Made by a program: the position numbers and the translations under genes | DNA from: Diplonema papillatum | Lineage: Eukaryota; Euglenozoa; Diplonemea; Diplonemida; Diplonemidae | DNA length: 64,000 nucleotides | Assembly: GCA_030068145.1 (NCBI GenBank) | Contig: JAPJBO010000226.1 | Span: 124,001 to 188,000, forward strand | Reading direction: 5' to 3' | Notes under the pieces: model-generated | Databases searched by the model: none | Told to the model about the DNA's origin: nothing | What the model saw: only the letters and a program-made list of their open reading frames with translations | Shown here: positions 2,555 through 47,244 of the stretch, piece by piece | Layout: each line of letters starts with the position of its first letter | Numbering within the stretch: position 1 is the stretch's first letter

Positions 2555-5500
2555 TTAGCTGCTGGGGCCTCCGTTTTCAGGAACAGACCCGACGAGCGTC
2601 GCCGATGCATCGTCGTCAAGAGCCGGGGCAGCCTCGCCTGGGGCCTTGTAGCCAATGGGAACGTCGAGTTGGTGGGCTTTCGGGTTGTCGCCGAGGGCCT
2701 CCCGCACAGCGGTGGTGTCGATGGTTTGCGTCGGACTGGTCAGCGTCGCGTTCGAGCCGAGCCAGGCCGCCCCTTCCGGATTGCCGATGCCGAACACGCG
2801 GAGGAGCCGCAGGCACTTGTCGTACACCCGCTGCCGCCACTGCAGCACCGGCGCCGCGGCCGTGTCCGGCCGGTCACCCACTTCGGCCTCGTCGACGCCG
2901 AACTCGGCGCACAGGATCCGTGCCCCGAGGAACGATTCGACGGGCTGCTCGATGGGCGAGTTGCGGACGGCGAGCGCCGCGCGCAGGTCTTCCGTCCCGT
3001 ATTCGGCAAAAAAGCTGGGCAGGTCGAGGCACCGCAGGTGCAGCGGGTGCTCCGGCGGCAGGCGCATCATGTTGTAGTACAGGGTCCGGAAGTCGTTGTA
3101 GTTCATTTGGTACCGAAACTCGGTCGGTCCCATCGATTGCTCGTGCGTGTAGTAGTAGTCGATGTCGCTCCACGTTCCGAAGTGGTACTGCCGGATGGAC
3201 GGCGCGTTGTAGCCCTTCTGCAGAGCTCCCAATCCTGCAGAGTGTTTGCGTAGAGTGGATTTTGGAAAAGAGCAGGAGTATACAACCAACCTTTTTCAAC
3301 CCATTTCGACGGAATGGGACTATAGAAGGTTGGCCATACGCGACTAGGTTAATAGTAGTGTCTTACAGAGTGTTTCAGACACGGCTGCGTCACGCATGCC
3401 CTTGCCCGACGCTAGCCGACCCGGCATTGTGCACGCGCGTCGCAGTCGTTGGCGTAATGACGGGGGTTCCATCGGACCCTCGAACGAGCTTCATGACTTC
3501 ATTCATCGCCGTAGGCTCCCTCTTCCCTGCCAAGTCTGCTTGGCCGTTATCGGGGGGGGTGTTGCCTCCGAGTCGGCGCCGTTTCGCTTGCTTTTGTCGC
3601 GCTAGTAGGTCTTCATTGTACACCAAGGAAACTCAATCCGGTAAGCCCACTGAGGGCCGCTCTGATCCAGAAAACTGCCCACTGCCGCAGGAAATAGTGG
3701 GACTGGAACGTATTGCGATAGTGTGCCGCCCTGTTCACGATTCGCTGCCAGGCATGTTTATTTCTTGCCTGCGCTGGAGGTCTAAGTTCAGCGCGAGATC
3801 TTCAACAGCATGAAGGTGCCTCGGTATTATGTTTCTACTGGTGTGCCTCGGCTATTTTCCATGAGGAAGCTGGAAGGAAAAGTGAGTGCTGACCTAACAA
3901 CGCACTTGCACGGCGGATGCGAGCTCACTTTGCGCCGCTTGCGGATACCGCCGATATTTATCCTGCCACGTGGGCAGAGGAGAGGAACGAAATCTTACTG
4001 GATTTGGTTTTTCGTTTGACGGAGGCTCCCCTTGAATGAGGAAGACCGAGTTTCTTGGTTCCTTCTGCAGGGGTTAAGTTAGAGATATTTCAAAGCTCTA
4101 TTTCCGGTTCTCGGTTGTACCGTCGATCCACCAGCTTCTTCTTTTGTGCAGCATGGTGGCAGAGTAGTTCTGGAGCAGTGCAATGAAGGGTGGAATCCTA
4201 TTTTGTGTTCCGGCAATAATTATCCCCTTTATCCCACCCCTGCCTTGGCTCACCCCTTTATCCCTCCCTGCCTTGGCTCACCCCTTTATCTCTCCCCTCC
4301 TCGGCTCCCCTCACCCCTTGCCGCTGATCCCGGTTGATAGTGACCCGGCCCTATTCCAACCCCCAGCCCAAAATGAATTCAACTTTTTTTTCGCGCTCGG
4401 GGTGGCCCCGAGCCCCAGTCCCATAAATAAATCACTGGCCCACCGTGGTGACCACCTTAGAGTGTGACAGGTAGCGTCTCCCCCCTCAGTGAAAATAGAC
4501 GCGTTTTTTTGAGTATTTCTTCGAGTTCTTTTTGTTTTGTGCGTGCCATCGTTTTCCCACTTGTATTTACCCTGAGCATATTCAGGTAAGGAATTCTGAT
4601 CAACCACCACCAAAACACGCTGCCTACGTCTTTTTAGCCTGCACAACACATTGAAGGGCGACCCGCAAGATTATTGAACGCCTACGCCCGCCACTAAACC
4701 CAGATGTACCTGTGTTTCGCGTGGGCTACAGCACATTTACCTCCTTTGATCTATCGCAACTGGCAGTCTCCTCAAGCATTTCCTACAAAGCAGGTGCTTA
4801 TACAATAAAATATAGAAAGAAGCGTGGCAACACACCGCTCTGATCCAGCACGAACAGCGTGTGCCGAGGGAAGTACTTCCGGAGTTTTTCGCACAGCGAC
4901 ACGTGCAGCGAGGGGATCCAGAAGTAGTTGTTCAGCATGCCCGCGGCGTTGCGGAGCGCCGTGCCGATGTTCAGGTTCGCCTGGAAGCCGCGGAAGAAGA
5001 ACACTTCCGGCGGGAACCGGTCTGTCGACCGGTACATACCCCGGTAGAGGCTCTGCTCTATGAGCTCCGGCGTGAAGATGCCGCTATGGTCCACGGCGCG
5101 CAGGTAAGCGATAATCAGCTCGTCTTGCAAAGGCCGGTGCACGTCTTTGTTTTTGATCCTCGAGTACTGAATTGGCAGCTGCACCTCAAACCTCTCGTCG
5201 GGGTCGATGTCTTCCTTGATTCCTGAAAGAAGGAAGGGGATGGGGTCGTCGTAATAGGTTTTGATTTTTAGAGTGCAAGTTCGCTTAGGTATCCGGGGTT
5301 TAAAAGTCTCCGGGTGACCATTGTCGTAAAGGTTCCTTTAGGTATAGTATGTTAGTGTGTGTATCGTATCTGCTGTAGTGGCAGTACGTGTGCTTGTGCG
5401 CGTATCTTCGCGCTGCCTATGGCCGACTATTCGACTTATTTTAGCGCGCGCTCTTATTTCCGATGTGCTTTGCCACACCCGTGGCTCTTGTGACCAACAC

Positions 5501-8500
5501 CGAGTTCACGTTCGCGAGGAAAGCGATCTCGGGCCCCCACGTGCATACATGGTTTTGGGGGGGGAATCTTAGTTTCGTGCCCATAATAATATCCGGAAAA
5601 TCCCGAAAGAATTTCCTCTAGATCGGTGTAGATTGAAAAAAACGGCCGGGAAACGCACCGCCAACAAGCCAGGACCCCAAAAGGACCCCAAATCACCGGA
5701 AGAAGGGGGGTCGTAGGAAACCCAAAACTGGAAGCCGCTAGCCTAGTTGAACCCGATGGCTTCTTCATCGAAGAAGTCTGAAGGCTTGGTGGGCGTCCAC
5801 TGCTGGTGGTTCCTCGAGTGGGGAACAAGCCTTACGTTCAGCGTGCTGAACGTACTGATTTCAGCACGTTAATTTTCGGTGTACCTACCCCCCCCCCCGT
5901 GTTTAAGATCGCGCCCTCCCCCCCCGTGTATAAGATCGGTTTTTTTGAGAAATGAGGGCGATCTTATACACGGGGGGGGAGTGGGGTGGGGTCCCGCGCA
6001 GCGGGAAAGTTTTTTTTTTGGGGCATTTTTACTGTGGGGGGGTTTTTTGGCCCCGCGCAGCGGGAATATTTTTTTTGGGGTACTTTTTCTCTGGGAGGTT
6101 CTGGCGGGAAGAATATCTCTTGGACCCCCCAAGTTGGGAGATACCATGCAGGGTCAAAACCTTGTCTTTTTTAAACGCTGCCGCGGGGGAAGTTACGGAT
6201 CCAGTTTGCCGACTTCCCTTACCTACATTGTTCTGTCGGCCAGAGGCTTTTAGCCTAGGAGACCTATTGCGGTTAACGGTACGGCCCGATGCAAGAGAAT
6301 GAGATCTCCCCTGTTTTTTCCATGCACATCCACAAGACACCCTACAACACGAAGAAAGTGCAGCTTTCCAGGATAGTTAACCCTGTCCCCGCGTGAAGCG
6401 TTTCGAGGGTCAACCCTTCCTTCAAAAAGAGACGACTGCATCATCCGGGGCCTGTGGACATGGTCAACAGGATCGTCAATGTGCCACCACTTCAGATCTC
6501 TGCATCCGGGTTGCGGAATGTTCACGCATTCCCTTTCGGCAATCCGATGCGACTACGAAGTAATGCTCGAGTACATCTGTACATTACCCAGCTTCCCCTC
6601 AGGGAAGTATGGGCTTCTCGTAATGGTGGATGGGTACAAGTCGCACTACAGCATTCCTGTCGTGAAGCAGCCATCCCTGCAGGATGGCGTCCACGTGTCC
6701 CGCAGGTACGCGAACCAGGAGTTCACGGCGGCCCTGTTGCGACGTCACGCCCCACATGGAGGCCGCTTCGAGGCGCGTCTGCGCCGAAGTCGCCTTCACC
6801 GCCCGGCGGCAGAGACGCGTCATCGCCGTGAGCGGGTCCTTCTCCACGCATGCCCACGTCTCTGCCGTCGCGTGCTTGCGTGCCACGGTGAGGACGAGTA
6901 CCGCCGTGGCCGCCCCGGGCTTCCGTCCGCCTTCAGTCGCCGCCTGCCGGACCTTCCCTACCTTCCCGGCCTGCCGAACGTCCCCGTGCGTCCACAAGTG
7001 CATCCGCCGCACCACGCCTGTTTCCATGAGGACGTGGCGCGCCTCGCTCTTCTCGAACGGCTGTCGGCACAACACCGCGTACCGAACCTCCTCTGTCGCC
7101 AGCGCCGCAGCATCGACCGCCACGCCCATCGCCGTCTCGGCCTCATCGACGCTGGGTGCGACCCAGAGCCCCTCCTTCTTCGCCTCGAATGAGCACGACT
7201 CGAGGATCGGCACGTTCCAGTCGAAACTGTGCACGCCGCACACGGTCGCCTTACGTCTGACGACGTCTACCCACTGCTGATGTTGCCGCTGCTGCGGTTG
7301 CTCTTGTTGTTGCGGGCGGTTCCGCCGTTGCTGTTGCGGTTGCTGTTGTTGCTGTGGCTGTTGTTGCTGCTGTTGCGGTTGCTGGTTTTGTTGCTGCTGC
7401 TGTTGTTGCTGTTGCGGTTGCCTCTGTTGCTGTCGCTGCTGTTGTTGTGGTTGCTGTTGTGCTTGTTGCCGCGGTTGCCGTTGTTGTTGTGGCTGTCGCT
7501 GCTGTTGCTGTTGCTGTTGTTGTTGTTGCTGCTGGTGCGGTTGCTGTTGCTGTTGCTGTTGTTGCTGGTGCGGTTGCTGTTGTTGCTGGTGCGGTTGCTG
7601 TTGTTGCTGGTGCGGTTGCGGTTGCTGTTGTTGCTGTTGCTGTTGCTGTTGCTGTTGTTGCTGTTGCGGTGCTCCTTCACGATCCTCGCCTTGGTACTTC
7701 GGCCGTCCTTGCGACAGCGCCGGTTCCCCCTGGCTCGTCTCGTTCCGCTGCTCCGCCTCCAGGAGGCTGATCGCCGCCTCCAGGAGTGTCAGCGCCACCC
7801 CTCGCTCCTCCTGACTTCGAGCCGCCGCTGCTGCCCGGCTAGCCCGCTCTGCTGCATCTCCGAGGCGGTCGAGCATCGACGATGGCGCCGCCGAAAGCGC
7901 CGCCATCGCCGTGATGTGTTCCCCCCGCTCCCTTGCCAGTCTCCCCCACAACTTTTCGTCGTCTTGTTGCGTTAGTGGGGAGTCATTTGCAAGCAAATGA
8001 GTACCACACTATGCCAGCTTTTCGCTACGTGACTCCAGAAGGGTCACTTTTTCCGCGCTTTCGGCGCGGCGCAACTCTAGTCGGCTGCAACTGTTGTTGG
8101 CAGTTGCTCACGATCTCATAATCCGAAAAGGAATCGGAGTCTTCGCTTTCTCGCTTGCGCCGATAGGCACGCCGCGATGCGGAGGACGCGAGTAGCCGGG
8201 AAGAGCCGGCGGGAGGGCGCGATCGTTGTGTGACCCGTGGAGGGTCGGAACCAGAATCAGTAAAAGGGCCCGAGTCAGGGCCTGCCATCGAAGAGGGCCG
8301 GGCGGGGCCGGGTGGGCGCGGTGTGTTCGGGCCGGCGAGGCCAGTGCCGTCGTCGCCGAGATCGGCGCGTCGTCGTCGTCGTGCGCGCAGCGCGGCTGCG
8401 GGAGAGGCCGTGGGGGTGCATGGCGCGGGTCGCTTCCTGCCTGCTGGCGGGGGGGCGCGCTTCGGGGGCGACTTCGTCGTCCGCCTCCTCCGGCCACGGC

Positions 8501-26586: not shown

Positions 26587-28202
26587 CACTTTCTTTTGTT
26601 TGTGCCCGCAGGACTCTTTCCTCTTTTTAGACTGTTTCTTGTGATATTTTTGTTGAGCGGAACGCACGGTAAGCCGCATGTAGTACGCTAGTGTGATGGA
26701 CCTTTCTTCGGAGGGGCTCACGCACTCAAAGATCGACTTATACGCATGTAGTACGCTGCCGGTCCACACCCTGCTGATAGACTGTGATAAACTATGCTAG
26801 TTGAGGTTAGAATGCAGAGTATCTGTAGCGATGGCCTGCATTTGTCACTAGGTGACTACCTCTTCGATTGTACCGTGTCGTGCTTCTGGAGTTAGACTCA
26901 TTCGAATCATCGTCTTCGCGCGGTCGCTTGGACCCTTCCCTTCTTTGTCGCTTTGCATGCCTGACATCCCTGTGGTAGACTGCTGATAGTCTGTGCTAAA
27001 CAGCAGAGGCAATTCGATGCAGTTCCAGGAAATAGGGGTGGCCGGCTCATAACTACACATTCTTAGCACAAGAAATGCCACGGGCGACGACGTCGACCTT
27101 GCGGACAACGCACAGGATTCGGTTCCTCGTCGCATTCCCGTAGAGTGCTGTGCCGGATGACGGGGGCACGCTACGAATGGTGCGATGTCGCTTTTGTTAA
27201 CGCCGTTGTTTTACTTCGAAAAAGAACAGAAGCAAAGAATGGCACGCCCCCCGTCGTTTTTTGATTGTTTCCTCCACTTCTGTCGATGGAGCACCTTCTT
27301 GAAGCATTCCTTCCCGATCGATTCAAGTAAGGAAGGCACATCGCACCGTCCGCCTTCACCAACAGGATGGGGATGGCTCACTTGTACCTGTGCTTGGCCT
27401 CATCAGAAGACATGCCATGACTTGCGCCGTGCGGTCAAAGCTTCGACACCAGCAGAACTACGGCAAGCGTGACGATGATAGTGCAAAGGCATATCACGCA
27501 CGCGAGCAACACCATCGTCTGTATGGTGCGGAATTGGCTTGGTTTGGAGCAAGCGGCGTTTCGAACTGAATCAACTGGGGGGTATCGGCCTTGTGTGTAT
27601 AATATGGTTCCCACCAACCCGAAGGAGCAAAAGGAGAACGGATCCATTGTTTCGCACGAATTCGAACGAGTGACGCAAGCCAGCGGCCGCCTTAGCAAAA
27701 AAGCATCGCGTCGACAATTGTTTGCAAGTCGGCGTATCAACGCCTGACGACGCAAACAGCGCAGCTCGGGTGCAGAAAGTAAACGCGCTGAAAAGCACAT
27801 TGACGACTCGTGATCCTCAAGCTTCTACCGGCCATTGCGAGCCAACGGCATGAAAAATGGCATACCATTCGGCTGAAGACGTACTTGCCACAGGTGTACG
27901 TGCTATCCTCTAAGTGCACCGGCTCTGGCGGCTTTTCGTCATCACTGATCGACTCAACGACGCAGCTCGGCATGCCGTCCGCCTGTTCCATCTGCTTCCG
28001 CAAAAGGGCCAGAACTGTCTCGTTTACCTGTGTGTGAGAGGAGGGGGCGTTGTGATGGGTGCTGGTTTTGAGGGATAAGGAAAAGTAAGAATCTTTTTGC
28101 GGTACTCTTTGACTCTTTTTCTCACTGTGGCTAGCCAGGAAAAGAGAGAGAGACGAGATAAGTACATGGGTGTTAGGACCACCCTTAGCGAGTCTAGAGG
28201 TA
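26587..28202. other. intergenic, no gene supported
   Basis: Apart from fragments of the dispersed 80-bp family near 26765 and 26980-27050, only short unrecognised frames are present. Confidence 0.4.
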
Positions 28203-29640
28203 ACCTTTTGCTCAGTCCGGCGTTTGCGCAAACCCGAACCTTTTTGTCCAGGCCGGCGTTTGTGCAAACCCGAACCTTTTTGCCCAGGCCGGCGTTTGTG
28301 CAAACCCGAACCTTTTTGTCCAGTCCGGCGTTTGTGCAAACCCGAACCTTTTTGTCCAGTCCGGCGTTTGCGCAAACCCGAACCTTTGCCCAGTCCGGCG
28401 TTTGTGCAAACCCGAACCTTTTTGCCCAGTCCGGCGTTTGTGCAAACCCGAACCTTTTTGTCCAGGCCGGCGTTTGTGCAAACCCGAACCTTTTTGTCCA
28501 GGCCGGCGTTTGTGCAAACCCGAACCTTTTTGCCCAGCCGGCGTTTGTGCAAACCCGAACCTTTTTGTCCAGTCCGGCGTTTGCCCAAACCCGAACCCTT
28601 TTGCCCAGGCCGGCGTTTGTGCAAACCCGACCCTTTTTGTCCAGTCCGGCGTTTGCGCAAACCCGAACCTTTTTGTCCAGTCCGGCGTTTGTGCAAACCC
28701 GAACCTTTTTGTCCAGTCCGGCGTTTGTGCAAACCCGAACCTTTTTGCCCAGTCCGGCGTTTGTGCAAACCCGAACCTTTTTGCCCAGTCCGGCGTTTGT
28801 GCAAACCCGAACCTTTTTGTCCAGGCCGGCGTTTGTGCAAACCCGAACCTTTTTGCCCAGGCCGGCGTTTGTGCAAACCCGACCCTTTTTGTCCAGTCCG
28901 GCGTTTGCCCAAACCCGAACCCTTTTGTCCAGGCCGGCGTTTGTGCAAACCCGAACCTTTTTGCCCAGGCCGGCGTTTGTGCAAACCCGAACCTTTTTGT
29001 CCAGTCCGGCGTTTGCCCAAACCCGAACCCTTTTGCCCAGGCCGGCGTTTGTGCAAACCCGACCCTTTTTGTCCAGTCCGGCGTTTGCGCAAACCCGAAC
29101 CTTTTTGTCCAGTCCGGCGTTTGCGCAAACCCGAACCTTTTTGCCCAGTCCGGCGTTTGTGCAAACCCGAACCTTTTTGCCCAGTCCGGCGTTTGTGCAA
29201 ACCCGAACCTTTTTGTCCAGGCCGGCGTTTGTGCAAACCCGAACCTTTTTGCCCAGGCCGGCGTTTGTGCAAACCCGACCCTTTTTGTCCAGTCCGGCGT
29301 TTGCCCAAACCCGAACCCTTTTGTCCAGGCCGGCGTTTGTGCAAACCCGACCCTTTTTGTCCAGTCCGGCGTTTGCGCAAACCCGAACCTTTTTGTCCAG
29401 TCCGGCGTTTGTGCAAACCCGAACCTTTTTGTCCAGTCCAGCGTTTGTGCAACCCGAACCGTTTGCCCAGTCGGGCGTTGTGCAAACCCGAAGCTTCTTG
29501 CCGGTCCGGTTTGTCCAACCCGAATTGTTTTGCTCAGCCTGGCGTTGGTGCAAATCCGCACCTTTTTGCCCAGGTCCGGCGTTGGTGCAAACCCGAACCT
29601 TTTTGTCCAGTTCGGCGTTTGTGAAAACCCGAACCCGTTG
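28203..29640. repeat. 36-bp minisatellite, about 40 units, with higher-order structure
   Basis: The unit TTTTTGTCCAGTCCGGCG-TTTGTGCAAACCCGAACC repeats head to tail. The unit length is a multiple of three and it lacks stops, so all six frames stay open and produce 12-residue peptide repeats (for example LDKKVRVCTNAG on the minus strand). Variants of the unit (TGTCC/TGCCC, TCC/GCC, TGTGC/TGCGC/TGCCC, GAACC/GACCC) recur in fixed blocks, notably around 28560-28640, 28860-28930, 29005-29065 and 29290-29350, indicating amplification of multi-unit segments. The right end becomes degenerate from 29440 on. The long open frames are explained by the repeat and are not claimed as genes. Confidence 0.92.
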
Positions 29641-29785
29641 AACCCTGATGGCAAGTTCGGTTGGGATGATAGCAAGTTCGGGGCGCGTACCCCGGACCCC
29701 CCCCCAGGGGTGGCCCTAAGCGGCCAGATTGCGGAGTCGTTGGCAGAATCGGACCTGACCCCACCCCCCCCCTATATACAGGCTA

Positions 29786-30000: not shown

Positions 30001-30080
30001 AATCTTAGTTTCGTGTTCAGGCGCTATCTAAGTATTTGATGCTAGCATCAAGTCTTCTTCGCGGAGTGCAGAGTCTTTTT
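30001..30080 (-). repeat. fragment resembling part of the 50918-52702 gene
   Basis: The minus strand reads REEDLMLAS, and beyond it PEHETKIF in another phase, corresponding to REEDLMLAS and PEHDEPKF of the host gene at about 51585-51660. A related fragment is at 62399-62516. In both dispersed fragments the core TTGATGCTAGCATCAA is a perfect 16-bp palindrome; in the gene it has one mismatch. Confidence 0.65.
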
Positions 30081-30469
30081 TCTTTTTTTCTTCTTTTTTT
30101 TCCGTTTTCTGTTTTTTATGTTCTTTCTTTCGTTGTCGACAATTTCTTTTTTCTCCTTTTACTTTTAATTTTTTAATTTTAATTTTCTTTACCATGGTAT
30201 TTTTGGACTTTCTGGTGCCGTAGAGTAGTTCTTCTTTCTCTATGCCGCCCACGTCGATGTTCGTTTAGCATTGAGTTCTTTTAAGTACATGAACCACATG
30301 GATTAGCATGCACTGTTCGTTTAGCAGCGGCTGCCGAATCATGCCGTGGCACCGTCCTTTTGTGCGTCTGCCTTGCTGAAGAAGTGTGGGAAAGGAGTCC
30401 AGGACTCCGTGGTTTGAAACCATGTGCTATGGCTTCACTTCCTCCTCCCTTCGTCCGTTTTTCTTTAAA

Positions 30470-30543: not shown

Positions 30544-32842
30544 TTACGCTTTCTCGAGAGAGATGACGTAGCCATTGGTTGTGAATCTCCTGGCACATTC
30601 CTCCCATGAGAGTACGAATACTTGCTGGTCGTCGTAGCACACCCATTCATCGTCTTCCTTTAACACGGTATAGTAATGACCTGCCGTTGCTCTTCCGGTG
30701 TGGATAATGAAGCCTTTTACCGTGTAGGAGTCTTCACCGATCAGTATGGTTTGTCGGATCGGGGTGCGGGCTGGTATTTTTATTTCTTCGCGTGTTTTTT
30801 TCGATAGCTGTGCTCGTTGCAGTGTTACATCCATTTGCTTTGGAAATGTGTAATACTCCTTCGTAAATCCAACGGTCCTTTTGTTACAGGTGCTACAGGG
30901 GAAGTCGTCCACTTTGGTTGCTCTCTTGTTTTGCACTTTCTTTATCAGATCCTCAACTGACTCGGTGTAGGGCTTCTCCCTGTTTTTGAGTTCAAGCATC
31001 AGGAACGGTTCTGACGCCGGCGATGCTCGTGAAGACTCTTTGCATATTGTGCACGTTGTCAAACGGGAGTATGTCACCGTAGCTTGGTCGTCGTCGTCGC
31101 CCGTCACGCAGGAGCGTATCCACGTCAGCAGTTCGTGCACGTCCCGATGCGCGGAGTCGTCTGCCGTCGTGTTGAACACGAGGCTCCGGAGTGTGGCCAT
31201 TGTACCGTGGATGTTTTGGCCTGCGTCGAAATCCGTGAACAGCCTCTGCACCATCTGCTGGTTGGTGTCCAGGTGCGTTAGGTTTGCGAGTTGTAGTCGG
31301 AAGGACGTCCTTCGCGCCAGGAACTGCACGCTGGCGGCGAAGAAACATGAGTTGCGAATGTTCGTTATGCCGTTGCGTCCAGGTGGGTTTGTTGGTTTCG
31401 TCGCAGGGTGCGTAGTGCTGGTGGGTTCGGATTTGTGCGGCGACGTAGACTGCGGCGAGGTTCTCCCGGGTGGATGTTTCGGTGAGCCGTCGGGCGGTTG
31501 CGGCGTGCGGATGCTGATGTACGGTTTTTCCTCGTTGGTCGGGCGACCTTCGTCATAGGCCTTTCCGACGAAGTGGTAAAACCGTGACAGCACTCGCGCA
31601 TCTAATTCGTACTTTCCGTACGTTTGTGCCACGAACGTGTCGAACGTGCGCCGGAGTTCCCGTCCAGAGAATCCTCGGTTCCGAAGTCTGTAGTACACCT
31701 TCATGACCTCGACCTTCAGATCTGGCATGTTGTTGCAGATGCGCGCTGCTCGGATCAGTGCGCCTTTGAAGATCGAGGTTCCGGTGTTTCGTGGTACCGT
31801 GGATTCGACGTGGGTGTACTTTATCGGATTCCAGGGGAATTCCTCACCCTTGTCCAGGACAGACATCCGAATGAAGTCCGTCTTGTCATTCCTCTCCATC
31901 CGGATCCGCATCCCCAAAAAGACTACGTCGTCGACACCTTTCGACGTTTCACCATACTCCATGCCGTAGATATCTTCCGGCGGTGGTCGAACACCCCAGG
32001 TCAGGAAGTCGTCAATGAATCTGACGCTGTCGGCGTGATTCCTGGCCTCTTCTTGCAATCCTTTCGCGACCAGGCCGTCGATGTACTGCTTTTCGCACCA
32101 GTAGCAGTATAAGTTGGCGAGGTCTGGGCTTGCATTGCCGCCCATGGGGATTCCGGATACCTGCTGGTAGCATGTTCCACCGTTGGTGACGAAGGTGTTA
32201 CCAACAATGAAGCTGACCAGTGCTCGAATCTCTTCGACATTGTAGGAGGTCGTGTTCGATTCGTCTGGTTTCCCAAATTCGAAACGGTGTTTGGCGCGCT
32301 GGGCTTCTACGTTCGCTCCTTTTTCGGACTTCATGTACTCGAAAGCCTCTGCAACCGCAGACATAACATAGTCAACAATCTGCTTCTGCGGAATCTTCGT
32401 GTACATCTCTTTGAAGTCGAAGGTTCGTGGCGCTTTTTTGCGCAGTCGAGCGTAGTTCGTCTTTATGTGTACTGCTACGTCATCGACCGACTCCACGACG
32501 AAGAAACGACGTATCCCCGTTTGCGAAAACGCCGCTTCGTCCTTGCTTCGGAGCGTAGCTAGCACCAGCTTCAGCAAACCGGAGGCTTCTTGGTGTGCAG
32601 GGGTTGTGGATGCACGTGTCTTCATTCGTTTCTTGTCGCGGCCTTTTTCGTCTCGGTCCTTCTGTTCGTTTTTCTTCTCAACGTTTCCTTTCTCCGACAC
32701 GCCGGCAATGTACCGCATCCGTGGTTCGGGTTTGTGGAGCTTCGGGATGCCGTAAAGGTACGGTAGGTTGTCGGCGTGTACGAACTTGTGTGACTTGTTG
32801 AAGTCACGGTGTCGTTCGAGCACGTCATCAATCGACTCCCCC
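30544..32842 (-). CDS. reverse transcriptase fused to a ubiquitin-specific protease (C19-type), 5' truncated
   Basis: One uninterrupted frame of about 760 codons; residues are counted from the GTG at 32823. At 21-40 is PYLYGIPKLHKPEPRMRYIAG, the finger region seen in Penelope-like and group-II-like RTs. The palm has DFKEMYTKIP (136-145), GIPMGGNASPDLANLY (224-239) and the catalytic FIDD (269-272, variant of YxDD). A thumb-like region follows to about 425, then a proline-rich linker (440-483). From 485 to the end is a whole USP domain: Cys box NIRNSCFFAASVQ with C493, a zinc ribbon C591xxC594 and C643xxC646, His box GHYY with H716, and the third catalytic residue in YDDQQV (D731). No GIY-YIG or other endonuclease follows. 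No ATG precedes the RT; the left end abuts a G/C run, so the start is lost. It is expected to be an element-encoded polyprotein or fusion; the biological role of the protease is unknown. Confidence 0.85.
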
Positions 32843-32954
32843 CCCCCCTCCGGAAAACCTTGATGATGGCAAGTTGCGGGCCCTTATCCAGGGGGGAGGG
32901 CCCCTCCGGACCGCCCCTGGTGAACCTTTGATGCTGAGTGCAGACCCGGAAAAA

Positions 32955-34982: not shown

Positions 34983-35549
34983 AAAAACTGGGGTTGTCCC
35001 ACCTTTTTGGATCACCAAAACTGACGTTTGAGGGTTGTCCCACTTTTTTGGGTCACCAATACTGACGTTTGAGGGTTGTCCCACTTTTTTCGATGACCAA
35101 TACTGACGTTTGAGGTCGTCCCACTTTTTTGGATGATCAATACTGACGTTTTAGGGTTGTCCCACTTTTTCGATGACCAATACTGACGTTCGAGGGTTGT
35201 CCCATATTTTTGGGTCACCAATACTGACGTTTGAGGGTTGTTCCACCTTTTTGGATCACCAATACTGATGTTTGAGGGTTGTCCCACTTTTTTCGATCAC
35301 CAATACTGACGTTTGAGGGTTGTCCCACTTTTTTGGATCACTAAAACTGACGTTTGAGGGTTGTCCCACTTTTTTCGATGACCAATACTGACGTTTGAGG
35401 GTTGTCCCACTTTTTTCGATGACCAATACTGACGTTTGAGGGTTGTCCCACACTTTTGGATCACCAATACTGACGTTTGAGGGTTGTCCCACTTTTTTCG
35501 ATGACCAATACTGACGTTTGAGGGTTGTCCCACTTTTTTGGGTCACCAA
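34983..35549. repeat. 41-bp minisatellite, array 1
   Basis: The unit CCAATACTGACGTTTGAGGG-TTGTCCCACTTTTTTCGATGA repeats about 14 times with a 41-bp period (a few units 39-40). The junction variants CGATGA, GGATCA and GGGTCA alternate. Because 41 is not a multiple of three, the minus-strand frames cycle through three readings and give a 41-residue peptide repeat. Coding use is not claimed. Confidence 0.92.
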
Positions 35550-36559: not shown

Positions 36560-39403
36560 CCTCGCGAGTAAAGAATGCCCTCACCGCAAGTAAAAGTCGC
36601 TGTCGATCCTCTGAGGCGTCAGCGGCAAGGGCAACTCTTGAAGGGACATCGGCCGGGTTTTCCTTCGTGCTGATCCACGAGATGGACCAGGAACATTTCA
36701 AATCCCGTAGTCGGGTCAACGCGTGCACAACTGCGTCATTCAATGACTTGTTCAACATGCAGTTTTTCTTTCGCGCCACCCCGACCACGGTCGTGTTGTC
36801 GACATGGACGTCGACTGCGCTCCCTGGGGTAGCGCATCCACCGCTCTCTTCAGAGCCAGTGCTTCGAGTGTGTTGATGTGGTGCCGAGCTTCCTGCTCGG
36901 TCCATGTACCACCCAACACAGTCAATTCTGCTGTCTGCCGGTCGACCAGGACAGCACCCCACCCCTGCAGTGACGCGTCTACGTAGACCGCGTACGGGCG
37001 ACTCGTGGACGGGCGCGTGAACTTTCTGCTCACATCGACCGAATCGATCCACGATCGCAAATCTCTCTGTACGGAGGCCGGCACAGGCACAGTCTCTGAT
37101 TGTGTGCGAGTTCCCTTGTTGAGGCTGTTCGTTATCCGTCGTAAGAACTTGACGGCGAACAAGAACGAGCCGGGGAACGCGTTCGCGACTGCACTCGCAT
37201 GGAGCAGGCGGCCGCTGAGCGATTCTAAATCGCCGGCGGAGGGACTAGACAAATCTACGGCCCGGATCTTTTCGATCAAGCGAGCCGCAGGAGAGACGGT
37301 CTTCCGACCATGGTCAAAAGTTACTCCTATAAAATCATAACCCGAGGAAGCGTCGTTGCTATCCTCGGGCTTCCAAGAAGCATGTACCCGTGCGGCCAGC
37401 CGATCGAGTTTCTCGGTCTGGCAGAGCACTGCGGCACGGGACCCACAAAGACGAATGTTGTCCACCCAGGCGTGGACTGTTACTCCGTCGGCCACAAATT
37501 CGGCGGCGGCGAAATCTGGGTGGCCAGCCAATACGGCTGTCAGAGTGTGCATCAACTCTGGTGCACACGAGTGTCCCATGGGCAGCCTATTCAGAACGTA
37601 GGCGTATCCATGCTCATCGAGGAAACCGAAGTTTTTTCGTGCATCCTCCGGGACTTCAATCTGATAGAAGCCACAACGCAAATCGCGCGTTGTGGCGCAT
37701 TCGGACTCCACGACATCGAGGTACTCCGAAACGTGGCCCAGCGGTACCTGGGCCACGTAGCCCTGGCGGTTCAGCAAGTCATTGGCCTCCTGCGTCCAGA
37801 GGATGAAACGCTGGCGCAGGCGACCTGCCTTGTCCTCCACCACCGTGAATGGCACATTGCGGAAAGTGCCCGGCGTGTCGGACGGTGACGCAATGCCCAA
37901 TCTGACGAGTTCAGAAGCGTGGGCGTTCAAAAGGTGACTCCTCTGTCCGCCCCCGGGTGTGCTTTCATTCTGATCCCGAACGGGGGAAAACGTGGCGCTC
38001 CAAACCGAGTCAAACCTAACGCGAACGTCAGGCTTCATCCTCTCCCGAAGCGACTCTGTGTCCATGGCGGGCACTTCCGCCACATGGAGGGGGGCCTCCC
38101 TCTCGGACGGAGACAACGGCAGACGCGTGTTGTGGGCACGTCTTGTGAAACTGCGGACCCGCCGGCCCACAATATCACTCAGCGGAGCCAGGGCACCTAC
38201 ATGGGGAGGTAGAGCTGTAAAACCGGAACTTGCCACGTCGAGAGGGGGAGGCAATTCGTCAGGAGGCAGCAGGTCAGCCACCCTAAACTCCGGCACCAAC
38301 GGGCGAAACAATCCCTGCGGAGCCGAGACTCCCGAGATGTGGTGCACAGGCGCCGTTGCACCGGAGCTTTCAGGTCCACCTGGTGCAGCTGATCCCCCTA
38401 CAACGCCAGGCTGAGGAAGAGACCGCGAAAACGCGGTACCAACTGGTGGTAACCACCCTGGAGGTGAAGAACCACCCATGAAAAACGGTCCTTGCGGAGA
38501 ACCCCAAGGATACAGAAATGGAACAATGGTTTGATTCAAACCAGACGGAGCGAATCCTGTAAAACATGACGGGTCAAACCCGCTAACCGCCCCGGGAGCC
38601 ATCCCAAGGGCAGGTTCCCATTCACCTGTCGCGAAACATGTCGCCTCCCCAAAAACCTCAACCGGACCGGGTCGTAGCGCGCCGCCTGAGCACGCCACGT
38701 CGTGTCCCACCAGGGAACCTTCTACCGGACCGAGTCGCTGCGCATCAGGGCATGTGCTGCCCAACCCGACACCGCCGCCGTGGCAGATGTCATGCGCTGC
38801 GTAACCGCAAGTCGTCGCGCCTGCGGGGTCACGCGCTGCGTCACTCTGCGGGTCTGAAGCCGCACCGAGTCGCTGCGCAGGGGGTTCCCCTGCAATCGGG
38901 GAAGAATGGGATTCACGGGAGTCAGGCGACCGGGCGGTGCCCGGATGGTGTCCAACGAGAGACACTCCCGCAAAGTTGATTGAATGTGGGGGATTGCCGA
39001 TTGATTGGGGGGGAAGCTGCAGCGTGTCGTCTCCAGACGCATCTCCCCTCGGGGCGGTGCACCGAGCGGGCAAGAGGGGCACCAGCCGGGCACACCGCGC
39101 CTGCACCGGGGCGGCGTGGGGGTCGTGGTAGCGGACGTGGGAGCGGGGCAACGGGCCGTCGGATGACTGGGGAGGTGAGACGGTAGTCGGCGGCATCGAC
39201 TGGCGCTGATCGCGCTTGCGCCGGCGTCGGACCGCGGGGGGAATGCGCCTCTTCCGTCCGCGAACACCGCCTCCGGTACCAGAGGAACATCCGCCGTCGA
39301 ATCCCCGGCGTTCTAGCCACAGCCACCGCTCTGTCCAGGGGGTCCTCGCTCTCCAGCTGCATGTGCATCCGGAACTCTTCGCGCGAGAACCCCCCCTGCG
39401 CAC
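36560..39403 (-). pseudogene. RT-RNase H polyprotein of insertion B, one visible frameshift
   Basis: The frame from 39403 to 36752 encodes a proline/glycine-rich N-terminal half of about 430 residues and then an RT domain (RFILWTQEANDLLNRQGYVA, FGFLDEHGYAYVLNRLPMGHS). The catalytic box is AWVDNIRL (about 37450) where YxDD is usual. RNase H starts at YAVYVDASLQGWGAVL with the acidic residue in NTLEALALK. At about 36850 the frame shifts, and the RNase H end continues in the frame ending at 36522 (VDVHVDNTTVVGVARKKN, ISTKENPADVPSR), a DIRS/caulimovirus-type RNase H signature. The frameshift makes it a probable pseudogene; programmed shifting is less likely at this position. Confidence 0.78.
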
Positions 39404-39915: not shown

Positions 39916-40105
39916 AAAAGAATCGGGAAGGTGTGACTGACATTCTTTGATCCTGTTGGTTCAGGCTTGTTCAGGAGTGCTACCATTTACCGGGATATTA
40001 CTAGTCGTCGAAGCCAGCCCCACCCCGAATTCTTCTGGTATCGATTCGAGGTGGTCGTGCTCGTCTAGCCATGCGTCTTGCTCCAGTTCCCTCAGTAAAC
40101 TGCAA
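39916..40105. repeat. remaining half of the third 405-bp unit
   Basis: It resumes at AAAAAGAATCGGGAAGG, exactly where the copies at 35550 and 35955 would continue after 17 further bases, and ends CTCAGTAAACTGCAA before the second 41-bp array. Confidence 0.9.
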
Positions 40106-40636
40106 TACTGACGTTTGAGGGTTGTCCCACTTTTTTCGATGACCAACACTGACGTTTGAGGGTTGTCCCACATTTTTGGATCACCAATACTGACGTTTGA
40201 GGGTTGTCCCACTTTTTTCGATGACCAATACTGACGTTTGAGGGTTGTCCCACTTTTTTGGGTCACCAATACTGACGTTTGAGGGTTGTCCCACTTTTTT
40301 GGATCACCAATACTGACGTTTGAGGGTTGTCCCACTTTTTTGGATCACCAATACTGACGTTTGAGGGTTGTCCCACTTTTTTGGATCACCAATACTGACG
40401 TTTGAGGGTTGTCCCACTTTTTTGGATCACCAATACTGACGTTTGAGGGTTGTCCCACTTTTTTGGGGCACCAATACTGACGTTTGAGGGTTGTCCCACA
40501 TTTTTGGATCACCAATACTGACGTTTGAGGGTTGTCCCACTTTTTTCGATGACCAATACTGACGTTTGAGGGTTGTCCCACATTTTTGGATCACCGATAC
40601 TGACGTTTGAGGGTTGTCCCACTTTTTTCGATGACC
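40106..40636. repeat. 41-bp minisatellite, array 2
   Basis: About 13 units of the same 41-bp repeat as 34983-35549. The array ends inside the RT frame of the next element: the CGATGACCA of the last unit is joined directly to RT coding sequence. Confidence 0.92.
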
Positions 40637-41860
40637 ACGTGCCTTCCCCCAAAAGCGATGCCGCCCGGCGCAGAAAAGCCATCGCCGAACGCAGAAAACA
40701 GAGTCGTCGCCTGGTCGAGAACAAGAACCAAACCACGCCGCCGAACACAGTAAAAACCTGCCGGGGTGTCGCACTCCCGCCCATGACCGGCGCGAGGGCT
40801 TCGCCCCCTAGGAACTTTTTCACCCACGACGGCGCCGATCGGTAGCGAGAAGGCTCGACCCCCAAATCGAACTCGAGACCGAGAGCCTCGAAACGGCTGA
40901 GCGGGCGTCCGTACATGCTGTCATGAGTATTCATGGCAGCGCCGACCAGCTGGCAGCGGTGTTGGAAACGCCGATAGCGTCTCTCTGCTTCCTCGTACGA
41001 GGTGCCAATCACAAAGAAGTTGTCGACCCAGCACACACCTTCGGACTCCGGCAACAGGACACGCGCTGTCCGCTGGGCTATACAGGGGGCCCAGTTCCAG
41101 CCCATGCACATCACGGAGAGCTGAACCTTCGTAAATCGACCCCTTGGGCCAGACAGGTTCATGCCAAAGAAACGCGAGACCGACTCCTCGAGGGGGAACT
41201 GGTAGAACCAGCTCACAGCATCCGCCTGCGCTACAAACTTCGACGCGAGGAACCTGCTCACAACATCGTCGATGCCGGGAAGAAGCATGGCCGGGGGCTT
41301 CTTCATCAGTGCGTTGAGTTTCCGGCCATCCGCGACCAGACGAAGCCCCCCGGACTTCTTCTCAACTGTAAAAGCTGGCAAGACCACACAGGCGTCTGTA
41401 CGCGCCCGCACCACGCCGTACGACTCCAACGTCGGAAGGTGGCGCAGCATGAATCGAGAGAGCCCCCTCGGGAGCCCGGGGTCTCCGTCCAGGATGGGAC
41501 GCGCCCCATCGCGCATGGCCCCTAGAAAAGCCTCACGAGACCGTATAACGTCCAGCACGCCGACTAGAACGCCCTCTGTGTCCAGGCAAACGAGCGCATC
41601 AAAGTTAAGACGAGAAGTTGAGATCGGGGCCAGCTTCCCCCTCGCCTTCGCCGCGGGAACCGAGACACTTCCGCCTGTAGTCCTGATGCAGAGCGCCTGG
41701 CTGTAAGGAAAGGCGATGTCAGGACCCCCCGTCTCAAGGGACGTGGGATCGTACGGAGAAAGGTGATGGTATTTGGGACGCCGGACTCTTGGAAAAGCCG
41801 GGGCGAGCGGGAGGATCGGCTTTTTCACGGGAGGACGTTCACGGCGAGGAGGCCCGACGA
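40637..41860 (-). pseudogene. reverse transcriptase of element C, truncated before RNase H
   Basis: The frame overlaps the end of the recombinase and encodes VVLPAFTVEKKSGGLRLVAD, the palm strand FVAQADAVSWFYQFPLEES, SVMCMGWNWAPCIAQRTARV and the catalytic box VCWVDNFFVIG (about 41010-41035). As in insertion B, VDN stands in place of the usual YxDD, so this is a lineage feature rather than damage. The open frame continues into the repeat array and loses homology at 40637. Confidence 0.75.
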
Positions 41861-42850
41861 AGTCGCCGTCTCGCGGGCCACGGCCAGCTTCCCGGCTGGC
41901 AGATACCGGACCAAGGCATCCAGACTGCTGTGGCGCGACACTCGTCGTATCTCCTCCAAGTGGAGCCCCTTCTGGAGTAGGCGGAACAGGGCCCCCCGGC
42001 GAATCGAGTGGCCGGTTAACTCCGGCCGAGCCCGCTTCAGGGCCGCTTTCACCTGCGCGTATGACACGGACAGGATCAGCTCCCCAGGAGGCCGTCCCTC
42101 GACATGCCGCCGAAGCTCGGCCGACCAGTCTTCCGACAGCACCAGACCAGTGGTGACACCCAGACGGAAAGGGTCCGACTTCGTTTGTGACCAATTCACA
42201 GCGACGAAACCGTCCTCCCAGGAGACGTCCCCAACCGTCAGGCGAGTAACGTCCGACACCCGCGCGGCCCCCGCCCATGCAAGAGCTATCGCAAGCCCAA
42301 CCTGTGAGCCCGCCTCCTTCCTGAGCACCCTCTGGATGTCCTGGTGCGTAGCGGGGACCGCCTGGCGCGTCGGGCGCATAGCGCCCTGCCTCCGTAGAGA
42401 CCTCTCGAAGTCGCGCACCACCTGCGAGTCGCTGATGGGCGCGCCAACCCGGCGCTGGGCTGACTTGAGGTCCTGCAGATACTGCAGCGCTGACGAGCAC
42501 ACTATGGGAGCGCGCCCGGGCTCCCCCAGCATCTTCCTTGTCAGCCACAAAACGACAGCCGTTGGGACGTCGATCTCCCGCTCCGAGCGGGACTCCCAAT
42601 TCCACTTGAACTGGAGCATACGTCGGTGCGTCGACTCCAAGGACCGCCACGTCGAGCTCGCGAGCGCAAGCGACAGATGGTTTCGCGCCGCAACTTCGAC
42701 GCGTCGCATCTCCTGTTTTGACGGTGGCGCTTCGACGAGCACCGGTCGTCCGCGCTTCAACTTTGCGGGTGCCTCGAGCCCCTTCAAGAAGGTTGTGATA
42801 GGGAAGTGCGAGGGTGGGCAGGGTGGGCAGACGACATTTCCGTTCACCTT
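41825..42850 (-). CDS. tyrosine recombinase (phage-integrase family) of element C
   Basis: In the frame open from 43069 to 41825 the recombinase follows the end of gag. Numbered from 43069, the catalytic set is R270 (GAARVSDVTRL), a candidate lysine K297 (QTKSDP), the HxxR box H354-R357 (TGHSIRRGAL), H380 (VSRHSSLDALVRYL) and the nucleophile Y389. All key residues are present. The N-terminal core-binding region includes STWRSLESTHRRMLQFKW. The frame differs from gag and overlaps its end, so expression probably needs frameshifting or re-initiation. It would cut and join the circular cDNA without target duplication. Confidence 0.85.
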   Translation of the reverse strand, partial: KVNGNVVCPPCPPSHFPITTFLKGLEAPAKLKRGRPVLVEAPPSKQEMRRVEVAARNHLSLALASSTWRSLESTHRRMLQFKWNWESRSEREIDVPTAVVLWLTRKMLGEPGRAPIVCSSALQYLQDLKSAQRRVGAPISDSQVVRDFERSLRRQGAMRPTRQAVPATHQDIQRVLRKEAGSQVGLAIALAWAGAARVSDVTRLTVGDVSWEDGFVAVNWSQTKSDPFRLGVTTGLVLSEDWSAELRRHVEGRPPGELILSVSYAQVKAALKRARPELTGHSIRRGALFRLLQKGLHLEEIRRVSRHSSLDALVRYLPAGKLAVARETATSSGLLAVNVLP

Positions 42851-44063
42851 CCGCTGTTCGCGGCGGTCTTGCTTCCGGTCTTTGCGCCTTTTTCCCTGGG
42901 GCGAAATGGGCCTTTGCCCTCTTGGTTCGCTCTGGTGGTGGTGGTTGTCGTTTCGGGCTTCGGTTTCTTCTTCCGAAACGTGTCGGCAACGTCCATCGAC
43001 TTTTTCAGGTAGTCGGGGACCTTCGGAGCGCCGAAAAACGTGTCGCTTACCGCCTGCGCACCGTCCCATGACACCTCGTACCCCGTCTTTAGCACAAGAA
43101 GGCGGACGATAACGTTTCGCGCGAGGCGGACTGCGAACTCGTCCTGCTCCGGACTGCTGGTTCCCACGCCTGTGAGAAGCTCGGCCAGTTGGCCGAGCAG
43201 GAACCCCGATTCGTGAGGGGCCTTCGTGAGGGGGACCACAAAGTGGAGGCGGAGCTCCATTAGGAGCACCGCCTTTTCCGTGCGGTCCATGTTGACCCAG
43301 AAAGCGGGGTCGAGCAGCACCGTCTCGCGGGGGGCGTCGACCGAGATTCCGCCTTCCGAGTAATCGCTCTCCCCTCCGCGGACCGAGGGAAGAGCGTCCC
43401 CGTTTTCCGAGGCCTGGGAGTTGGCGCGCGACTGTGCTGCGTCCGGTGTCGCGCGCGGCGCTGGAGGTGCCTTCTTCAGCTGAGCTATCTCAGCCCGCAG
43501 CTCGGCCATCTCGGCCTTGCGGTCTTTCTCCATCCGCTCGATGAGAGCGATGATGGCGTTGTCAACCGGGGGGGGCGTGATGGGGGGTGAGCGCGATCGG
43601 GAAACGGGTCGGGCGTGGGGGACTCCAGGGGGCCGTAAACCGGTGCCGCGGCCTGCTGAGGCCGTTCTGTGTGCATCTTCAACGCCGCCGGCTATCGGCG
43701 TTTCGTCCTCGATGTCCTCCGTGTCATAGTCGATGTTGAGACGCGCCATTTCTGCCGCCACCACTTCCGGTGCCTTCTTGTGCAGCTGCCAGAAAGACAG
43801 CAGAAGCCGGGAGCGCCCATCAGGCTCGACACCGCAGCCGCCTCCACGCCCAGAACCCCGGCCACCACGGCGCGCAGCTGGCGCACCGCGGTCTCCTCCG
43901 TGCGTGAGAACCGCGACCTTACGAAGGAGGTCGCCTCGCCCGTCAACAGCTTCACCCCTCTCAGGGGTTTGCTCCCTGTCACCCGCTCGAAAGCTGCAGC
44001 GAGCTCGCTTGGATACGAGAACCTGCTCTTTCTCGACGGGGTGCCCCACAACATGGTAGACAT
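42844..44063 (-). pseudogene. gag-like protein of element C with one frameshift
   Basis: ATG at 44063 begins MSTMLWGTPSRKSRFSYPSE and runs about 85 codons (ELAAAFERVTGSK, TAVRQLRAVVAGVLG). At about 43810 the reading continues in the neighbouring frame (LSFWQLHKKAPEVVAAEMARL) to the stop at 42844. A coiled-coil stretch lies near 43470-43530 (DRKAEMAELRAEIAQLKK), followed by an acidic and then a globular C-terminal part (FAVRLARNVIVRLLVLKTGYEV). The frameshift suggests decay. A weakly similar frame occurs at 60890-61249. Confidence 0.6.
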
Positions 44064-44983: not shown

Positions 44984-47244
44984 TCAGGACGCAAGTGAAA
45001 ACGCCACGGTTTGCGGCGACGAGCTTCTCATTTCCTCCAACATTTCATGTTTGGTAAAAAAAAAAGAACGCACACACCCGTCGCGCGGGCCGACCCGATC
45101 ACAGGCGGAGGCCCCGCCGGCGCGGGGGTGGCCGCCGCCGAAGCTCGCTGCGCCCGCCAGCGTCCGGCCGTGCGACCCGACGCGCCGCGCCTTCAGCGGC
45201 GGGCACTTGCCGCGCCGGTCGGCGGCCGCGCCGCCGCCGCCGATGCCGCCGCCGTCAGCGGCCGGCGGGCCCCCAGAGCACTCTGGGCAGGTCGAGTCCC
45301 CCGCCGCGTCGTGCGCCATGCACACACACTCATGTGCCGGCGCCGCCGCCGGGGGGGGAGTGGCGGAGGATCTGGGCATCGGCTTCTGGGCCGAATGGAC
45401 GACGTACGACCCTGTAGCAGTCCCGGGCGAGCTCGAGAACGACGCGTCTATGTCGGAGTGCAGGGACCGCGAATTCAGCGACGCCCCGGTCCAAGGCCGC
45501 ACGGGCGCCGCCGGTTGCTTTTCGGAGAAGCCGAGGGCGCTGTACACAGGCAAAACCTCGCCCTCCAGCGTCCAATCCCCGCTCACCTCCGAAAACACGG
45601 CTTCCTGCAGAAACGGGTGGTGGCAGAGCACCAAGCTGTCGCCCCTGTCGCCGGCGGCGCGCTGCAGGCAGCAGTCGTGCAGGAAGCTCTGACACGCCTG
45701 CGACGCGGCCACGTCCGACGGGAGCCCGAGCCGCACTGTCCCGGCGACCAAGCACTCGCGGAAGGCGGCGGCGGTGGGGGCGGTGTGGCTGAACGGCCGC
45801 TTCGCGGTGAGGATCTCGACGATGGTGCAGCCGAGGGACCAGACGTCGCTTCTCGCAGAGGCGGGCTCGCCGGACGCGACTTCGGGCGCCTGCCAATAAA
45901 TGGTGCCGTCCTCGCCCAGCTTCTTACCCCGGTCCTTCAAGAGGGCGGACAGGCCGAAGTCAGCCAGACGCAGGTCCCCGGATATGGACACCATCACGTT
46001 CGCCGCCTTCAGGTCGCCGTGCGCGATGCCGCGGCCGTGTAGGTGGGCGAGCCCCGCTACAATCTGCCGGGCGTGGCTGGCGACGGTCCGCTCGCGCAGG
46101 CCGCCGGTCTGGGCGCACAGGGCGAGGAGGCTGCTGCCCGGGATGTATTCGAGGAACAGGTTCGCCGAGCGCTCCATGCGCTCGCAGCGGATGTACGACA
46201 CGAGGTTCGGGTGCCGCAGCTGGCGCAGGGCCTTCATCTCCTGGTGCAGCCGCAGGCTCTTCGACGGGTCGAGGTGCTCGATCGCCTTCACCGCCAGCAA
46301 CTGGCCGGTGTTCTCGTTCAGCCCTGTTTTGTGTGGCCGGCGTGCATGCCGTCTCCTTCTTTTCCCGTAAGTACGCACAAACTAAGCATGCGCCAGCCTT
46401 TTTCAGAGTGAAATCTCGCGTGAAAGTCCAAAGGGGGTTTGTTTGAACGTCCCGGGGGAGGATTAGCCTGCTAGTGGATGATGGTGAGTGAATATGCTCG
46501 TTAGGCTAATCTTCTCCCAAACACGCTGCCAGCGTTCTCTTTCGTGTGTACAATGCATCGTTACTACGAAAGAAAAGGGAATTATTATACGCAGCGCGTG
46601 CTGTATGGGCAGAGAGCGCCGGTGACCACACTGTCCGTTTGTCTCGATTGGACCTGCGTGGCGAGGAACTGTGGCTAGCAAAAACGAACAACGTACACGA
46701 TGGAGTCCAACCTTAGAAGCTGGCTGGAGTGAAGAGATGTGCCTGAGTCTTTAAAAAACAAAACGCGCGCAAGGCGACGCCCGAAAAGTTAATTCAACTT
46801 ATCTGAGGCTCGACACCGTGCACCCACTCAGGGGTCCGGCAAAGATCCGAGTTGCGCTCGGAGGCGGAAAAATACTCGGTCGAGCGTTTCCTTTCAAGCT
46901 GGCGCTTATGTAAGAGAAATGCGTGTGAAAGAGAGGCGCACACCGAGGTAAACCTTGCCGAGCTGCCCATCTCCGATGACGGCGCCTTGCTTCCACCGCA
47001 GCTTCTCGCGCGTGCCGTGGGCGGGCGCGGACGACGGCGGCGGCGGCGGCGGCGGCTCGACGGGCACCGCCAGCGGCGGGACGGTCGGCGGCGGCTGGTG
47101 CCGGCCCGGCGGCAGCCGCAGCGGCGAGCAGCTCTTCGCCACGACGACGACGCCGCGCGGAGACGGCACCCGGCCGGCTCCGCAGCTGCTGCCGTCGCTC
47201 GCCGAGCGGAGGCTCTTCGGGCCGCACGCACCGGCGTCCGCCAT
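44984..47244 (-). CDS. protein kinase, STE/MAPKKK-like, two exons
   Basis: The model is complement(join(44984..46323, 46944..47244)), 1641 nt and 546 residues. The donor CTCG|GTGTGC and acceptor AACAG|GGCTG restore VYLGLNEN in the glycine loop. Residues 1-80 are low complexity, rich in proline and alanine. The kinase domain has the loop GDGQLGKVYLG (91-101), K113 in AVK, E129, the catalytic loop HGDLKAANV (202-210), DFG (222-224) and APE (246-248). HGD replaces the usual HRD, but the aspartate and DLKxxN are intact, so activity is plausible with altered activation-loop coupling. GTIYWQAPEV resembles MEKK/STE11 kinases. After about residue 360 comes a long disordered tail with serine, glycine and a CVCMAHD...CPEC cysteine pair. 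ATG at 47244 is the first in frame. Confidence 0.85.
46324..46943 (-). other. intron of the kinase gene
   Basis: A 620-nt GT-AG intron in phase 1, splitting the glycine codon of the ATP loop. No other feature is seen in it. Confidence 0.8.

Follow-up and report, generated by a model that had tools for sequence, protein, structure and literature searches.

A ubiquitin-specific protease in the open frame of a permuted Penelope-like element from Diplonema papillatum, and a C-terminal slot that other deubiquitinase folds may share

We analyzed a 64,000-nucleotide stretch of the Diplonema papillatum genome (contig JAPJBO010000226.1, positions 124,001 to 188,000; hereafter, the window). On its reverse strand, a single open frame of 759 amino acids (30544..32823) encodes a Penelope-like reverse transcriptase (RT), a linker, and a ubiquitin-specific protease (USP) and forms part of a 5'-truncated Penelope-like retroelement copy. 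The RT part (residues 1 to 424; 31552..32823) comprises the fingers from YGIPKLHK onward, the palm, and the thumb, with the N-terminal RT portion missing. It was largely ordered in the structure model, its motifs were conserved in A1, and the IDD of its catalytic FIDD box (residues 269 to 272; 32008..32019) was invariant in A1 and A4. A Pro/Thr-rich linker follows (residues 425 to 481; 31381..31551), for which the predicted structure gave a predicted local distance difference test score (pLDDT) of <50 at residues 438 to 481. The USP catalytic domain (UCH, C19; residues 485 to 752; 30568..31371) contains the catalytic residues C493 (31345..31347), H716 (30676..30678), and D731 (30631..30633), as well as the zinc-ribbon cysteines C591, C594, C643, and C646 (30886..31053). 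All of these features lie on the reverse strand. A sequence-only reading of the locus had proposed that a Penelope-like RT runs into a C19-type USP whose catalytic residues are intact and which has a four-cysteine zinc ribbon, and our analysis confirmed this description. Of the two Pfam families that it had named, UCH was recovered and RVT_1 matched weakly (E 0.015).

The C-terminal domain of the window protein is predicted to adopt a USP fold, and its fold matches, all obtained with VIA-align, included USP12, USP46, Ubp8 of SAGA, and USP1 with FANCD2. Homology of the frame ended at 32841 by tblastn, within a run of G (32838..32848, reverse strand) that marks the truncation point of this copy. 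An A-rich stretch 3' of the stop (30070..30200, reverse strand) possibly lies within the 3' end of the element. We also observed that the 15-mer TGATGGCAAGTTCGG and its variants flank the RT-USP copy on both sides (29646-29681 and 32864-32878); this may be a host repeat that was hit by the element's insertion.

The proteins nearest to the window frame were from D. papillatum. Among them, P0001 (870 amino acids) spans the entire frame, which is 98.8% identical to residues 106 to 870 of P0001 over 765 amino acids, and it represents 18 sequences clustered at 90% identity. P0007, also from D. papillatum (7 sequences; 74% identity to the window frame), and P0011 (49% identity) have the same RT-USP order; these cluster sizes count database sequences rather than verified genome copies. 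A Trinity transcript with the prefix "Rhum" (P0013; taken as Rhynchopus humris, another diplonemid) carries RT and USP in a single open reading frame (ORF), so the fusion is transcribed in the source of P0013.

Fuller relatives identified the type of element. Penelope-like elements of the permuted type carry a GIY-YIG endonuclease before the RT, with a CxC motif in the linker between them. The RT of this family is telomerase-like, as in Penelope-like elements, and in relatives the GIY-YIG lies in the same ORF as the RT (endonuclease-positive, EN+, type). An N-terminal GIY-YIG was found at or above the Pfam cut-off in P0015, P0016, P0017, L001, L003, L004, and P0031 and under it in P0018 and P0020. 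The permuted order with the CxC motif was present in P0016 (GIY at 788, CxC at 1078, RT motif at 1457) and P0017 (GIY-YIG from 86, CxC at 388, RT motif at 774). Two other hits of the loose CxC pattern, at residue 82 of P0020 and after the RT in P0041, look spurious and were rejected. The window copy lacks the GIY-YIG because it is 5' truncated, and since the fuller relatives have the endonuclease at the N terminus, the USP does not replace it; the proposal that the USP occupies the endonuclease position was thus not borne out. It is nearly certain that the window frame belongs to a 5'-truncated permuted Penelope-like element with the order GIY-YIG, CxC, telomerase-like RT, linker, and USP.

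In contig DNA, the GIY-YIG-RT frames of L001, L003, and L004 terminate with no protease. On L003, similar coiled-coil-like ORFs lie on either side of the GIY-YIG-RT frame (214-870 and 5487-6050), an arrangement like that of a head-to-tail tandem that includes an ORF1; the match of this ORF to L1 ORF1-type trimerization was weak and under the cut-off (E 0.046).

The catalytic residues of the USP were conserved across the family. The Cys, His, and Asp/Asn triad was present in 11 of 11 aligned USP carriers, with D or N at the third position, and by eye in L002, for a total of 12 complete USP domains. P0007 excepted, these domains were 14 to 35% identical to the USP of P0001 and still kept their catalytic residues. 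The RT-USP fusion is kept across the family, and the concern that other copies might lack the USP did not materialize; the USP is a regular constituent of this element family's protein.

We built an RT tree from 36 of the 52 protein ids obtained by protein searches and all 4 loci (L001 to L004) from a genome-contig scan. Chimeric, partial, or near-duplicate sequences were left out (P0002-P0006, P0008-P0010, P0015, P0016, P0025, P0035, and P0043), as were P0033 and P0034, which have no RT motif, and P0052, in which the RT is cut. All rows with a protease slot C-terminal to the RT, save P0042, P0044, and L002, fell into one clade of 24 rows (support, 100/99). In this clade, 21 rows extend beyond the RT, while P0024 and P0048 stop before the slot and P0051 has just the start of a possible Cys box.

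The 21 slots held 10 USP domains, 2 OTU domains, 4 Josephin-type domains, 4 unconfirmed papain/Josephin-like domains, and 1 Ulp1-like motif, and 15 of them were backed by a Pfam match with an E value of ≤0.03. The USP slots were all assigned by Pfam, with P0018 partial and below cut-off (E 2.8e-4). For OTU, P0050 matched at E 1.8e-6 and P0019 as a fragment below cut-off (E 0.0025); a profile of these two rows matched OTUD5 (E 5.3e-5). Josephin was found in P0022 (fragment above cut-off at E 1.1e-6; whole protein just below at E 3e-5) and below cut-off in P0036 (E 5.3e-4) and P0039 (E 0.028), and P0023 grouped with these three rows with no Pfam support of its own. P0014, P0038, P0040 (incomplete), and P0047 share a GECGW...(S/T)H(Y/F) domain that is Josephin-like by eye, with a model pLDDT of <50. 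Their Josephin identity was left unconfirmed: no PDB profile match was found, profile comparison with the P0022 group was weak (probability 4.8%, E 0.0083), and Pfam returned Longin for P0014 (E 0.0015) and Peptidase_C39 for P0038 (E 0.026), both below cut-off. The top PDB matches of the A6 profile were designed helical proteins and were discarded. Outside the tree, a stretch of P0052 resembles Josephin by eye but has no Pfam match. The Ulp1-like assignment of P0021 consists of the motif H..D..Q....C, which 3 of 20,000 P0021 shuffles also carry; neither Peptidase_C48 in Pfam nor a PDB match was found for it. A possible common C-terminal zinc finger is a lead only, seen in P0017 and P0050 by a loose pattern and in P0019 by eye; the pattern also matches P0023 and, of 2,000 shuffles each, 7 for P0017 and 5 for P0050.

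The tree further indicated that the slot has changed its contents. The nearest outgroup rows (P0026-P0030) end shortly past the RT, and P0032 is cut inside it. Strong USP matches recurred in a distant RT clade (P0042, E 4.7e-25; P0044, E 7.5e-25; L002, E 5.6e-27) whose RTs are far from the main clade, with protease-less rows in between; the branches that part them had bootstrap values of 100. When all 13 USP rows were constrained to a single clade, the log likelihood fell by 270.6 and the constraint was rejected (p-AU 5e-63), for a group chosen after viewing a first tree. The slot states call for at least 7 changes across 36 labelled rows and 4 across the 28 rows with safer labels (USP, OTU, none, and P0022 as Josephin). 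Separate host origins of the two USP clades found no support: USP15 was the best PDB match of the USP in L002 as well as of the window protein, which offers no argument for different sources.

The element also affects the annotation of its host. Two D. papillatum proteins named "Ubiquitin carboxyl-terminal hydrolase 26" and "putative ubiquitin carboxyl-terminal hydrolase 16" (P0007 and P0017) are retroelement proteins, and host USP gene counts may therefore be inflated. The D. papillatum genome paper reports ∼2,500 retroelement-type gene models, and the words Penelope and ubiquitin are absent from its main text (PMC10161547). Five D. papillatum gene models (P0002, P0004, P0005, P0006, and P0009) join the element to other sequence, by name UNC93-like, dynein intermediate chain, and STIP1-like. 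In the two whose sequences were examined (P0002 and P0009), the break falls at the same RLTT before GT, a hint that both use one predicted splice donor. A further model, P0035, named Kinesin-like protein 3, contains two Penelope-like RT stretches of different types in tandem, plus a GIY-YIG.

Elsewhere in the window, a large reverse-strand frame (36752-39403) had a weak RVT_1 match and an RT_RNaseH_2 match below cut-off (E 1.2e-5); it is flanked by 41-bp tandem arrays with a common unit (34991-35549 and 40103-40637) and is a second, different retroelement between related arrays. Overlapping reverse-strand frames at 40509-43489 matched RVT_1 below cut-off (E 7e-6) and a phage-integrase-type tyrosine recombinase (E 5e-9), and this looks like a tyrosine-recombinase (DIRS/Ngaro-like) retroelement. 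A protein kinase domain (44984-46381, reverse strand; E 9.1e-48) probably marks a host gene. A eukaryotic large-subunit rRNA fragment lies at 6240-6602 (reverse strand), and about 3,600 scattered 28S pieces are reported from the genome (PMC10161547). Finally, several reading frames on both strands stay open across ∼40 copies of a 36-bp tandem repeat (28202-29635); this is an artefact of the length of the repeat unit.

USP, OTU, and Josephin proteases have ubiquitin removal in common and differ in fold and ancestry. Because proteases sharing that activity were repeatedly captured at one spot, removal of ubiquitin (or a ubiquitin-like protein) is probably the activity under selection. The claim that intact residues imply selection on the protease was too strong when made from a single copy; with the triad retained in 12 USP domains and the same place occupied by further deubiquitinase folds in relatives, such selection is likely. 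Tethered to the RT and endonuclease, the USP would act as a deubiquitinase in cis. In its simplest use, it would take ubiquitin off the element's own ribonucleoprotein (RNP), sparing the RNP from the proteasome; alternatively, it might take ubiquitin off chromatin or repair proteins where the target has been nicked, allowing target-primed synthesis to run to completion. That RNP protection rather than target-site editing is the main use appears somewhat less likely than not. As a whole, the statement that this is a truncated permuted element whose USP most likely works as an active deubiquitinase in cis appears reasonably likely from sequence comparison. We lean slightly toward a broader proposal, in which the elements of this permuted Penelope-like clade keep a dedicated "ubiquitin-eraser" slot at the C terminus, with USP, OTU, Josephin, and perhaps Ulp1 each having entered it independently, and in which control of ubiquitin (or ubiquitin-like) marks is required for replication and forms a front of the arms race with the host.

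Several observations weigh against an active deubiquitinase in cis. In each pairwise comparison with P0001, the RT is more similar than the USP (for instance, 81 versus 68% identity for P0007 and 63 versus 35% for P0011), so the USP has the faster rate of evolution. Several USP carriers have an incomplete set of zinc-ribbon cysteines, and two Josephin-type proteins, P0039 and P0023, have no catalytic Cys; catalysis is thus not always kept. Moreover, 6 of the 21 main-clade slots rest on a motif or on grouping, with no domain match. The sequence also does not separate RNP protection from target-site editing. The USP could be a target-site factor: acting at the nick, it would deubiquitinate histones or repair proteins and thereby steer integration or repair. 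A USP fused to RT and endonuclease would be brought to that site. The chromatin- and repair-linked USPs among the fold matches listed above point the same way, though weakly because USPs share one fold, and we regard this alternative as rather unlikely.

Other explanations carry less weight. Proteases of many retroelements process their own polyprotein, and the disordered linker between RT and USP would suit a maturation enzyme that has no deubiquitinase role. However, USP, OTU, and Josephin share ubiquitin cleavage rather than general proteolysis, and no ubiquitin-like domain was among the Pfam matches of the scanned proteins, so that polyprotein maturation is improbable. Still harder to credit is a functionless host-exon capture or gene-model fusion that merely hitch-hikes. 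Four D. papillatum models (P0002, P0004, P0005, and P0006) do join the element to host genes, and the genome paper cautions about models with spurious introns near repeats (PMC10161547). Yet both the window frame and the L002 frame lie in contiguous DNA, and the architecture recurs in several families, from 98.8% down to about 20% identity with catalytic residues kept; we reject a chance or gene-model fusion on these grounds. A functionless fusion would also leave unexplained the other deubiquitinase folds in the same place in related elements. Scans of IMG/VR for a viral origin gave no relative. The preferred reading, selection for ubiquitin removal, suggests that escape from or editing of the ubiquitin system helps these marine-protist elements spread. 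Should the slot be real, the presence of several protease folds within a single RT lineage would amount to natural experiments, through which the part that ubiquitin plays in retrotransposition could be tested directly.

We found no published USP in a retroelement ORF, nor any Penelope-like RT with a fused USP, OTU, or Josephin domain, in a search of main texts that covered few subscription papers and not Craig et al. 2021. Permuted Penelope-like elements with an N-terminal endonuclease, Naiad/Chlamys, were reportedly described by Craig et al. in 2021 (Mol Biol Evol). Like the family described here, they are said to have an N-terminal GIY-YIG, a CxC motif, and a telomerase-like RT in one ORF, to which the present family adds the C-terminal deubiquitinase slot; we know of no such slot in that work. 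Cellular USPs (USP12, USP46, and USP15) have the same C19 fold, catalytic triad, and zinc ribbon but are host genes without an RT, and viruses also have deubiquitinase folds. Canonical Penelope elements likewise combine a telomerase-like RT and a GIY-YIG in one ORF, but their GIY-YIG is C-terminal, and the sections concerned describe no element-encoded protease (PMC11167929). Terminons and Athena elements resemble this family in pairing Penelope-like RTs with enzymes that were captured and that different retroelement types have in common; in contrast, their GDSL esterases, DEDDy exonucleases, Rep, and others lie in separate ORFs, with no RT-fused deubiquitinase in the parts of the sources that describe them (PMC6431247, PMC5408684). 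Helitrons and Helentrons, as treated in part of one of these sources, are transposable elements with an OTU-like cysteine protease, a deubiquitinase fold, but they are rolling-circle DNA elements and carry OTU rather than USP (PMC6431247). Modular enzyme capture by Penelope-like elements (PMC5408684, PMC6431247) and OTU in Helentrons (PMC6431247) are already known from these accounts, and the RT-USP frame described here stands beside them.
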